Assembly (NCBI RefSeq): GCF_000375365.1
Contig: NZ_AQXB01000007.1
Coordinates: 124,001-188,000, forward strand
Direction of reading: 5' to 3'
DNA length: 64,000 nt
Source of the DNA: Corynebacterium mastitidis DSM 44356
GTDB lineage: Bacteria; Actinomycetota; Actinomycetes; Mycobacteriales; Mycobacteriaceae
A program made the position numbers and the translations under genes. This document shows, one piece after another, positions 26,397 through 29,464 of this stretch (within the stretch, counting starts at the first letter, position 1; the number at the start of each line of letters is the position of its first letter). The notes under the pieces are model-generated. The model was not told where the DNA came from. It was given only the letters and a program-made list of their open reading frames with translations, and made no database searches.

Positions 26397-26993
26397 ATGA
26401 GCACCGACGGCACCATCCTCTGCGAGGACGGCCTGCGCCGCCCGCCCTGGGCCACCGCCTCCGCCCTCCTGCGCGAGTACTACGACACCGAATGGGGCAT
26501 GCCCGTGCGCGACGACCGCGGCATGTACGAGCGCCTCACCCTGGAGTCCTTCCAGTCCGGCCTGTCCTGGGCCACCATCCTGGCCAAGCGCCCCGCCTTC
26601 CGCCGCGCGTTCTGCGGCTTCGACCCCGAGGCGGTGGCCCGGTACGGGCCCGCCGAGGTGGAGGGGCTGCTTGCCGACGCCTCCATCGTGCGCAACCGCC
26701 GCAAGATCGAGGCCGCCATCGCCAACGCCCGCGCCACCTTAGACCTGGTTCCCGTGGGCGGGCTCGCGGAGCTGGTGTGGTCCTTCCGGCCCGAGACCAC
26801 CCCGGCACCGCGCACGATGGAGGAGGTGCCCACCCGCTCCCCCGAGTCCGCGGCGCTGGCGGCGGCGCTGAAGAAGGCGGGGTTCCGCTTCGTGGGGCCC
26901 ACCACCATGTACGCCCTCATGGAGGCGGTGGGGGTGGTGGACACGCACCTGGTGGGGTCGTGGCGGCGCGGCAGCTCGGGGGTGTGGGGGTAG
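26397..26993 (+). CDS. tag: DNA-3-methyladenine glycosylase I
   Basis: A 198-residue helix-hairpin-helix glycosylase that removes 3-methyladenine from DNA. YYDTEWGMPVRDDRGMYERL, ESFQSGLSWATIL and FVGPTTMYALMEAVGVVDTH are strong family signatures and include the conserved glutamate and tryptophan of the base pocket. The zinc snap of E. coli Tag is not conserved: the position of His17 is Tyr, and the Cys after the C-terminal His is missing. ATG 26397 lacks a good Shine-Dalgarno. It lies just before the small-gene patch. Confidence 0.92.
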   Translation: MSTDGTILCEDGLRRPPWATASALLREYYDTEWGMPVRDDRGMYERLTLESFQSGLSWATILAKRPAFRRAFCGFDPEAVARYGPAEVEGLLADASIVRNRRKIEAAIANARATLDLVPVGGLAELVWSFRPETTPAPRTMEEVPTRSPESAALAAALKKAGFRFVGPTTMYALMEAVGVVDTHLVGSWRRGSSGVWG

Positions 26994-27013: not shown

Positions 27014-27053
27014 GTCAACCCTACATTGACAGAAGTGTCAACGTAGGGTTGAC
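27014..27053. promoter_or_regulatory. 40-bp near-perfect palindrome at the start of an HTH gene
   Basis: Two 18-bp arms (27014-27031 and 27036-27053) match at 17 of 18 positions around a GAAG centre. The right arm contains TAGGGT, a possible -10, and ends one base before the ATG at 27055. A dimeric repressor bound here would block transcription, so it is probably the autoregulatory operator of the HTH protein. Confidence 0.7.
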
Positions 27054-27054
27054 T

Positions 27055-27627
27055 ATGGGCGTGGACAGCATACGCCAAGCACAACAAGCCATCGAGGCCG
27101 CCCAGCAGCAGCTCCACCGCGCCGTCCACGCCGCCCGCGCCCGGGGCTCCTCCTGGGCCGAGATCGGCGCGGCCCTCGGAGTCTCCCGGCAGGCCGCCTT
27201 CAAGAGATTCGGCGCTCCCATCGACCCCAGAACAGGAAAACCCATGCGCACCCGCCCCGTGACAATCCTCATCGACCTCACCGAACGGCTCTTCGCCCAC
27301 ATCGACGCCCAGCGATGGGACGAGGCCGCCGCCCTGCTCCACCCCGACGCCCGCAAGGAACTCACCCCCGAGGTGTTCCTTCAGGCATGGACCTCCACCA
27401 TCGGGGACTACGGCGACTTTGACGGCTGCCGCGACACCCTCGTCACCGCCGCCAGCCGCACCAACGCGCGAGAACCCCTCCACGGGAGCGTGGTGGGCAC
27501 CGCCGTGGGGGTGACCACCCTGCACTTCGAGGCCGGGGAATGCCTCGGACGGGTGTCCTTTACCCCCGACGACCTCATCGACGGCGTCTACCTCCTGCCC
27601 ACCGACGCAAAGGAGAGCCACTTCTAA
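27055..27627 (+). CDS. HTH domain fused to a DUF3887-like domain
   Basis: A 190-residue protein. Residues 4-53 form a helical DNA-binding module ending GSSWAEIGAALGVSRQAAFKRFG, a common actinobacterial HTH. Residues 72-182 resemble DUF3887: ERLFAHIDAQRWDEAAALL, then a strand-rich half ending ISFTPDDLIDG-like GRVSFTPDDLIDGVYLLP. DUF3887 is a small NTF2-like fold often joined to hydrolases; as a partner to an HTH it may sense a ligand. The 40-bp palindrome ends at the start codon, arguing for autoregulation. A frameshifted small membrane ORF follows at once. Confidence 0.75.
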   Translation: MGVDSIRQAQQAIEAAQQQLHRAVHAARARGSSWAEIGAALGVSRQAAFKRFGAPIDPRTGKPMRTRPVTILIDLTERLFAHIDAQRWDEAAALLHPDARKELTPEVFLQAWTSTIGDYGDFDGCRDTLVTAASRTNAREPLHGSVVGTAVGVTTLHFEAGECLGRVSFTPDDLIDGVYLLPTDAKESHF

Positions 27628-27629
27628 CC

Positions 27630-27783
27630 ATGTCCCCCCTACGTCCGCGCCCTCCTCGCCTTCAAGGTCCTCTTCGCCCTCGGCGGGCGGATCCTCTCCG
27701 ACTTAGCCAGCGGAATCATCCCCGCCTCCGCCGGGGCGATCATGGTGTATCTCCTTGCGCCCCGGAAGGAAAAAGAACGGTAG
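27630..27783 (+). pseudogene. Small membrane protein ORF disrupted at a C6 run
   Basis: Directly after the HTH gene an ATG opens, but the hydrophobic peptide lies in another frame: VRALLAFKVLFALGGRIL, then SAGAIMVYLLAPRKEKER, ending at TAG 27781-27783. Removing one C from the run 27634-27639 would join the ATG to this peptide and give a 50-residue protein with one or two membrane helices. So the gene is either frameshifted, switched by slippage in the C run, or misread. AAAGGAG lies 13 bases upstream. Confidence 0.5.
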
Positions 27784-28726: not shown

Positions 28727-29407
28727 TCACAACGGCTGCGCGGATTCCTCCAATACCGCGATGAGCGGCGCGGCGTCGTCCCGCATGAACAGCTCGGTGA
28801 GCGCCTGGTGCCACTCCAGTTGCTTGTTCCCGGACACGGTGAAGGGCATGTACCCGTGGGCCACCAGTTCCAGGCTGGCGGTCATCACCGCCGTGCGCTT
28901 GTTCCCGTCCCAGAAGAACTGCGCCCGGGCCATGAACGGCACCCGCAGGAGGGCGCGCCGCGCGGCCTCGGTGGGGGCGTTGCCCTCCCACCAGGCCCAT
29001 ACCTCGTCCAGTTCCTCCCGGGAGGGCGCCTGGTAGTCCCCCTCCGGGGTGCGGACGATCCCGCCGCGCCCGCCCAGGGAGGTTCGAGAGCGGGACACCG
29101 TCCCGTTGATCCGCTCCGCGATCTCCCGGGTCACGGGGGTGCGTTTTTTCGCCTCCCGGACCACCAGGCCCCACGCCTCCGCGATGGCCCGCACCTCGTC
29201 CAGATCGTGCAGCGGGTGGCCTCCCACCGTCATCCCGGACATGATGGTCTGCACCTCGGGAAAGGTGAAGTTCAGGCCCTCCAGGCGCGCGGTGGACCAG
29301 GTGGCAAAGGGGTGGTTCTTCAGCAGCGCGTGATATGCGGCGTCAAAGCCCACGCGGGGCAGATCCGGGAGAGGGCAAGGATGAGAAAAACCACCGAACA
29401 TAGCCAT
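28727..29407 (-). CDS. Fic-domain protein with catalytic His replaced by Gln
   Basis: A 226-residue Fic protein. The anion-binding half of the active-site motif is intact (WDGNKRTA, 166-173), but the histidine that activates the target hydroxyl is Gln163 (AQFFWDGNKRT). An N-terminal inhibitory helix with T-x3-E-G (Thr39, Glu43, Gly44) is present, the class II arrangement. Active Fic enzymes add AMP to proteins; without the His, ordinary AMPylation is unlikely, so it may be inactive or do different chemistry. ATG 29407 used; 29401 is possible. Neighbours are small membrane genes and tRNA-Ala. Confidence 0.82.
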   Translation of the reverse strand: MAMFGGFSHPCPLPDLPRVGFDAAYHALLKNHPFATWSTARLEGLNFTFPEVQTIMSGMTVGGHPLHDLDEVRAIAEAWGLVVREAKKRTPVTREIAERINGTVSRSRTSLGGRGGIVRTPEGDYQAPSREELDEVWAWWEGNAPTEAARRALLRVPFMARAQFFWDGNKRTAVMTASLELVAHGYMPFTVSGNKQLEWHQALTELFMRDDAAPLIAVLEESAQPL

Positions 29408-29464
29408 CACCTTATCCCCTCTCGCCGCGTTCTCACTTCGCCTTCATCCCCGCATGGATATAGC

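Follow-up and report, generated by a model that had tools for sequence, protein, structure and literature searches.

A predicted self-repressor of the ClpC2 kind with a DUF3887 domain and a twin operator in Corynebacterium mastitidis

Results

Features of the locus

The window analysed here is a stretch of 64,000 nucleotides from Corynebacterium mastitidis DSM 44356 (RefSeq assembly GCF_000375365.1, contig NZ_AQXB01000007.1, positions 124,001 to 188,000, forward strand), and all coordinates refer to it. It contains a gene for a protein that joins a helix-turn-helix (HTH) to a DUF3887 domain, directly preceded by two facing copies of a short palindrome. The features of the locus are listed below.

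26397-26993, DNA-3-methyladenine glycosylase gene (tag), directly upstream
27014-27053, no strand, composite dyad made up of a facing pair of operators (17/18 inverted repeat)
27014-27030, no strand, distal 17-bp operator (predicted), GTCAACCCTACATTGAC, kept in homologues
27026-27031, + strand, candidate -35-like TTGACA inside the distal operator (from sequence)
27037-27053, no strand, proximal 17-bp operator (predicted), GTCAACGTAGGGTTGAC, kept in homologues
27050-27055, + strand, weak hexamer TGACTA, 18 nt past TTGACA (from sequence)
27061-27627, + strand, HTH-DUF3887 protein, 188 aa from the likelier GTG start (190 aa from the alternative ATG 27055)
27064-27141, + strand, long N-terminal helix, residues 2-27 (AlphaFold model; aligned to the long helix of ClpC2)
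27154-27210, + strand, HTH, helices 32-39 and 43-50, recognition helix RQAAFKRF (model; matches to RelI and to the ClpC2 N-terminus)
27247-27600, + strand, DUF3887/NTF2-like domain, residues 63-180 (Pfam, AlphaFold model, Foldseek, realignment)
27631-27783, + strand, remnant frame of a 50-aa small membrane protein, without an in-frame start codon
27824-27961, 45-aa charged protein (KEEKKDHRSAITGRYVKEATAERHPKTTVSETRS)
28727-29410, - strand, frame with the motif FWDGNKRTA, which we take to be Fic-like

The inverted repeat ends one base before ATG 27055, which had been proposed as the start of the gene. The location of the repeat at the beginning of the gene stands, but the proposed start codon is doubtful. 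The closest homologues begin (MDSIR...) at the position of GTG 27061, 7 nt past the proximal site, and the other short Corynebacterium HTH-DUF3887 genes start 7-9 nt after theirs; by this alignment GTG 27061 is the likelier start, and ATG 27055 is probably not the true one.

The fusion of an HTH to a DUF3887-like domain, as put forward in the original prediction, is supported by Pfam, by the homologues and by structure. Pfam matches DUF3887 (PF13026) on the protein with an E-value of 6.8e-6 and 27.1 bits, below the gathering cut-off of 31.8; the family is matched at E <=0.01 by 56 of 59 aligned homologues, and a Streptantibioticus homologue (L159) reaches 39.7 bits, above the cut-off. The AlphaFold model (pLDDT 91.6, pTM 0.73) had no match at E <=0.001 in a Foldseek search of the PDB, in which the DUF3887 crystal structure 4HYZ ranked second (E 0.022, probability 1.00); on structural realignment 4HYZ came top (Z 12.7, rmsd 2.7, 104 residues), and by this realignment the C-terminal domain has the NTF2-like fold of DUF3887. 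The best sequence match of the HTH in the PDB is the RelI antitoxin (Rv2664, PDB 9SDC; E 2.2e-11). Residues 1-95 of ClpC2, used as a query, found the window gene at E 1.3e-5 along with its Corynebacterium orthologues, while Pfam found no Clp_N domain in the window protein. Its closest named relatives, among the best 80 of 248, are from Corynebacterium oculi (70%) and C. lowii (61%).

Neighbouring genes

A tiny membrane protein encoded downstream had been suggested as the output of the regulator. This suggestion is not upheld: the frame at 27631-27783 has no start codon here and was seen beside the gene in close relatives alone. C. oculi (L106, also L048) has an intact homologue 3' of its HTH-DUF3887 gene; the C. 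lowii locus (L107/L050) showed none. In other genera, unrelated small membrane proteins lead the operator-driven unit. The gene is flanked by tag upstream and by the 45-aa frame downstream, which has no Pfam match and also lies just downstream in L048 and L050; by eye, the same end of the glycosylase gene is found upstream in L050.

In the neighbourhoods of the best 80 of 248 loci, an ABC-ATPase-like cluster was seen by eye in 11, at scattered positions, a membrane protein of about 115 aa lay upstream in 10, and other genes recurred in at most 7. The gene for this protein of about 115 aa comes first in a unit that includes HTH-DUF3887 and is preceded by one operator only (L114, L120, L121, L124, L126, L131, L132, L133, L137 and L162); those of L131 and L124 gave no Pfam match. 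Three Streptomycetaceae loci (L159, L180, L184) carry a small membrane protein 3' of the gene, the one in L180 being PLDc_N (Pfam, E 1.1e-12). On the Curtobacterium plasmid pTCL (L186), the gene after HTH-DUF3887 encodes a CPBP-family protein, and SdpA/SdpB-type antimicrobial peptide genes lie close by.

The match to RelI brings up the alternative that the protein is a RelI-type antitoxin, the HTH of which neutralises a toxin, with DNA binding being secondary. RelI is the best PDB match, and the 2026 RelI paper describes RelI as similar to an HTH region of ClpC2 and groups DUF3887 and DUF2812 fusions with the RelI homologues (PMC13284704). However, the gene upstream of the window gene encodes a DNA-3-methyladenine glycosylase and not a toxin. 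The same paper reports that fused genes typically stand alone and that an inverted repeat upstream of relSI was not found, whereas a twin operator precedes the fused genes here. We regard an antitoxin as a very improbable explanation, and a repressor of its own gene as the preferred one.

The twin operator

The arms of the inverted repeat, 18 nt each, lie at 27014-27031 and 27036-27053 and pair at 17/18 positions (94% complementary) around a 4-nt loop. Each half of this 40-bp repeat is a 17-bp palindrome of its own, of the form GTCAA-N7-TTGAC, and the two start 23 bp apart. They are the only two sites of this form in the whole window, as against a mean of 0.01 in 100 dinucleotide-preserving shuffles of the window, which never contained two; the twin pair is therefore not due to chance, and the repeat originally described is confirmed in its coordinates. 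ClpC2 represses its own gene via CGTCAAC-n5-GTTGACG, located 1-2 nt before the ORF and often repeated upstream (PMC10030653), and the distal window site departs at 1 of 12 bases from GTCAAC-N5-GTTGAC, the strict form of that operator. A simple scan found neither a full sigma-70 promoter site nor a terminator-like site at the locus. In the window genome there is one further GTCAA-N7-TTGAC site, and the control pattern read backwards also occurs once; the additional site falls within a frame that Pfam identifies as ATP-synt_A (atpB), and a second regulon member in this genome was rejected for this reason.

Conservation of the operator within Corynebacterium

A profile of the HTH-DUF3887 protein was searched against 242 Corynebacterium genomes. 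Twin sites precede all 17 intact short HTH-DUF3887 genes that it found, each site having at most one mismatch to GTCAAC-N5-GTTGAC and the two lying 23-24 bp apart. When the same 242 genomes were searched with the pattern first, 12 twin sites were found in 12 genomes (reversed-pattern control, 0), 11 of which sit directly 5' of an HTH-DUF3887 gene; the twelfth (G111) precedes a gene with the same beginning, cut by the contig end, the rest of which is likely on another contig. In a second Corynebacterium group of eight loci (L053-L060) the N-terminus is longer and the sites are 2-3 bases off, and a site pair is visible in four of the eight, always 29 bp apart. Strict sites away from the HTH-DUF3887 gene numbered three across the 17 gene-bearing genomes, two of them being the same site word; the one in the window genome is the site within atpB. 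These counts cover the strict form in the 17 genomes, and looser sites in the window genome alone.

As the window sites are the ClpC2 operator, they could also serve another regulator, e.g. a ClpC2 encoded elsewhere, with the HTH-DUF3887 gene as a mere target. Against this, the ClpC2 N-terminus found only weak matches (<=34.6 bits), in 36 of the 242 Corynebacterium genomes. The best of these were HTH-DUF3887 proteins and short HTH proteins, and the one long frame among them that these do not explain (G020) is another fusion and not ClpC2; such weak matches indicate that nothing obvious competes with the window protein for its sites. The window genome itself contains just one match for the ClpC2/RelI-family HTH. 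Control by a separate regulator is thus, in our judgement, even less probable than an antitoxin role, and the HTH-DUF3887 protein remains the likelier reader of its own operators.

Conservation of the operator across actinobacterial homologues

From the best 80 of 248 relatives, nine were dropped as more than 85% identical, leaving 71 non-redundant homologues. The pattern GTMAA-N7-TTKAC, which was picked after inspection of the same loci, occurs in exact form at 63 of the 71 when the 650 nt ahead of the HTH codons are searched. Within 450 nt, the gap of 7 was found at 54 of the 71 homologues, and gaps of 4, 5, 6, 8, 9 and 10 at none; there was also no site in the 394,320 bases outside the 600 nt upstream. 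The strict form GTCAAC-N5-GTTGAC was present within 450 nt at 17 of the 71, and nine strict sites fell outside that stretch, as expected from nine loci (Nocardioides, Arthrobacter, Blastococcus, Tessaracoccus, Nakamurella) at which some 500 nt separate the operator from the HTH codons and the unit begins, just after the operator, with a gene for a small membrane protein. Four of the eight homologues that miss an exact site (L160, L167, L168, L170) have one-mismatch sites. The palindrome that the original prediction expected upstream of orthologues is thus found at these homologues as well as at the Corynebacterium genes. Short HTH-only relatives are often without a site of the GTMAA-N7-TTKAC type (e.g. 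L007, L010, L014, L015, L017, L026, L029, L030); a site pair is present at L025. Two stretches of viral contigs were matched, neither being a relative, and plasmids gave two records and phages one, the latter in the HTH part only.

A second site with at most two mismatches accompanies the first at 43 of the 63 loci, 22 times at 23-24 bp, 20 times at 27-30 bp and once at 34. Where the spacing is 23-24 bp the HTH begins no more than 143 nt from the site, and where it is wider the N-termini are longer, L148 being the one short exception. In a shuffle test that ignores the relatedness of the loci, the 22 pairs of the 23-24 bp type together with the window pair had 113 of their 161 inner positions matching the reverse complement, a score that none of 5000 shuffles reached (mean 93.1), and the 27-30 bp type did not exceed its shuffles (62 of 140, shuffle mean 57.5, p 0.19). 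This facing symmetry of the closely spaced pairs is the source of the 40-bp palindromic operator that had been proposed. The dyad does exist, but it is really a pair of 17-bp operators; the inner palindrome of 7 bases is perfect in only 7 of the 23 pairs of the 23-24 bp type.

These observations also bear on the possibility that the repeat acts as an RNA hairpin, i.e. as a terminator of the upstream gene or an attenuator, for which a stem of 18 nt (17/18 pairs) with a 4-nt loop could form. The 17-bp sites are kept even though the long palindrome is poorly kept in the one spacing type and not favoured in the other, no terminator-like site was found by the simple scan, and a start 7 nt past the site is in keeping with a leaderless mRNA, from which the repeat would be absent. 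The terminator or attenuator reading was rejected on the scan and on the poor conservation of the long palindrome, and a hairpin is to us the least probable of the alternatives, close to negligible; the preferred reading of the repeat is a pair of protein-binding sites.

The recognition helix and the operator also appear to vary together. In the DUF3887 set, a K recognition residue goes with base C at position 6 of the half-site in 33 of 33 loci, and Q with a different majority base in 26 of 30, a count that leaves out the 8 of 71 loci without an exact site. In the Clp_N set, C stands at base 6 in 171 of the 176 half-sites of proteins with K, as against 15 of 28 where the residue is Q. The switch between K and Q occurred once on the DUF3887 tree and twice on the Clp_N tree, and because the changes are so few the association is not independent proof; from these alignments, a link between this residue and operator base 6 may be offered as a suggestion only.

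Twin sites across the phylum

Among 396 sampled genomes of the phylum, 33 contained the twin pattern, at 36 places in all, and none the reversed pattern; with one overlapping triple counted once, there are 35 twin-site places. An HTH of the ClpC2/RelI family lies within 1 kb downstream at 32 of the 35 (the window, 27 of the 29 loci of one set and 4 of the 5 of another), compared with 4 of 467 control stretches, and the places without such an HTH nearby are L093, L102 and L224. At the 32 places the HTH carries Clp_N in 27 cases, DUF3887 in one (the window) and a third domain in two (L079, L098), and stands by itself in two (L078, L226). The third domain of L079 and L098 has no Pfam match, and their HTH genes form a unit behind a small membrane protein, the start of which is 2 nt past the twin site. 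By eye, a Corynebacterium locus (L229) also has a protein of the third kind behind a small membrane-protein gene; two GCAAG-N5-CTTGC palindromes about 29 bp apart, also seen by eye, lie directly before that membrane gene and do not fit GTMAA-N7-TTKAC. A ClpC2-type paired site at a gene with a different small-molecule-binding domain suggests that actinobacteria build self-silencing sensors by placing different sensor parts on one DNA-reading part.

The choice of C-terminal domains is also relevant to a simpler explanation, in which the protein is a plain autorepressor without a ligand, DUF3887 serves for oligomerisation alone and the circuit keeps the protein level low. The two HTH-only members with a twin site are consistent with this, as are the pure oligomerisation hubs among NTF2-like folds, with CaMKII hub chains appearing among the realignment matches. 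Nevertheless, the presence of several unrelated C-terminal domains on the same HTH and operator is a better fit to sensing than to shared assembly, and ClpC2 is reported to respond to a ligand (PMC10030653). We consider a ligand-free autorepressor unlikely, and prefer a self-repressor that senses a ligand.

Discussion

Proposed mechanism

The comparisons presented here place the HTH in the ClpC2/RelI family and equate the twin 17-bp sites with the ClpC2 operator directly before the start codon; the same comparisons lend good support to a model in which two dimers repress the promoter of their own gene. We consider it likely that the product of the window gene is a one-component self-repressor like ClpC2, in which a ClpC2-type HTH dimer would repress its own, probably leaderless, gene until a ligand bound by the NTF2-like DUF3887 domain lifts the repression. 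An autorepressor with an NTF2-like ligand domain, as originally proposed, thus remains the best-supported, although predicted, reading, with a conserved operator at the orthologues. The dimer would be joined by the long N-terminal helix and would place the RQAAFKRF recognition helix on each site, and two facing dimers would cover the promoter, with the -35-like TTGACA in the distal site, as well as the start of the leaderless mRNA. Binding of a small molecule or peptide in the DUF3887 cavity, as the fold and the example of ClpC2 suggest, would weaken DNA binding and induce the protein. The few other exact or strict sites in the genomes indicate that the protein itself is probably the output, most plausibly as a ligand binder or sponge, as ClpC2 is for cyclomarin A; both the sponge role and the ligand sensing are inferred by analogy. 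The HTH-DUF3887 proteins, a named but unexplained family in many actinobacterial genera, are in this way tied to a characterised mechanism, and the predicted operator could be tested in one gel shift and used as a reporter for a ligand hunt.

A wider proposal, to which we give somewhat less than even weight, is that ClpC2 is one case of a class of actinobacterial, single-target 'sponge-repressors'. In such a class, unrelated ligand-binding domains (Clp_N, DUF3887 and the third domain without a Pfam family) would have been grafted onto one HTH/operator module, each protein repressing only its own unit and being released by a ligand of its own, which it would then soak up and which might be an antibiotic or some other toxic metabolite, with the N-terminal HTH reading the DNA in all of them, ClpC2 included. 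Regulators of the TipA/AlbA type likewise combine regulator and antibiotic binder in one protein, their HTH being of the MerR type. The window protein can be likened to them in its working, with a different HTH and a different sensor.

Which part of ClpC2 probably reads DNA

DNA binding by ClpC2 has been assigned to its C-terminal Clp_N domain, partly since the R185A/R189A variant binds DNA less well, and the term helix-turn-helix is absent from the main text of that paper (PMC10030653). Its crystal fragments cover residues 4-72 and 94-252 (PMC10030653). Residues 73-93, with the predicted recognition helix, are left out by both fragments (PDB 8ADA and 8AD9), the chain of fragment 4-72 ending ...SWSDIGKSMGV, just short of that helix. 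In a model of a ClpC2 (L083) the recognition helix lies at 74-81, the whole HTH being shifted by a constant 31 residues relative to that of the window protein, and no ClpC2 chain among the PDB matches listed had its best match over the predicted recognition helix. Mutation of R57 derepressed clpC2 4.6-fold, against 2.0-fold for the C-terminal double mutant (PMC10030653); the window equivalent of Rv2667 R57 in the alignment is R26, which is nearly invariant among the homologues. DUF3887 proteins without Clp_N carry the same operator, and what they have in common with ClpC2 is the helix and the HTH, from which we infer that both recognise the operator through the HTH. As the predicted recognition helix is not covered by the ClpC2 chains found in the PDB, the published assignment probably gives DNA reading to the wrong ClpC2 domain. 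ClpC2 has been studied because it blunts an antitubercular compound, and the part suggested here to read its DNA is a helix missing from both published crystal fragments.

Comparison with known systems

The DUF3887 family (PF13026; 4HYZ) shares with the window domain an NTF2-like fold with a cavity (PMC3924330). The DUF3887 proteins described in that paper have secretory signals, lipoboxes or transmembrane regions, whereas the window DUF3887 is joined to an HTH and presumably cytoplasmic. RelI has in common with the window protein the HTH family, but is a short antitoxin beside its toxin (PMC13284704), while the window protein fuses the HTH to a predicted sensor, has an operator and has no toxin recognised beside its gene. 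The accessible text of PMC13284704 reports no operator for the DUF3887 or DUF2812 fusions, and a link between the ClpC2 operator and DUF3887 genes was not found in print in the open-access literature, some searches of which were limited to 2021 on or 2022 on. In that literature PMC13284704 alone contained both ClpC2 and helix-turn-helix, and it and PMC3924330 were the two papers that contained DUF3887.

The closest known system is ClpC2 (Rv2667 and its M. smegmatis orthologue). ClpC2 and the window protein share a homologous N-terminal helix and HTH, and their genes share the operator, its duplication, its position beside the start codon and a leaderless geometry (PMC10030653). The ClpC2 operator overlaps the -35 and -10 of a leaderless promoter, and cyclomarin A releases the repression by ClpC2 and is soaked up by it (PMC10030653). 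The two differ at the C-terminus, which is Clp_N in ClpC2 and DUF3887 in the window protein, in the shorter N-terminus of the latter and in the spacing of the sites, 28-29 bp for ClpC2 and 23-24 bp for the short HTH-DUF3887 genes; an N-terminal HTH of the ClpC2 family and operators directly before the start are thus present, and the C-terminal Clp_N is not. Self-repression is published for ClpC2 (PMC10030653) and predicted, from operator and HTH, for the window protein. The regulatory unit had been put forward as the strongest candidate in the window for an undescribed one, and this can no longer be maintained: a protein with the same HTH family, operator and self-repression is already known in ClpC2, and the HTH-DUF3887 fusion is mentioned in print (PMC10030653, PMC13284704).
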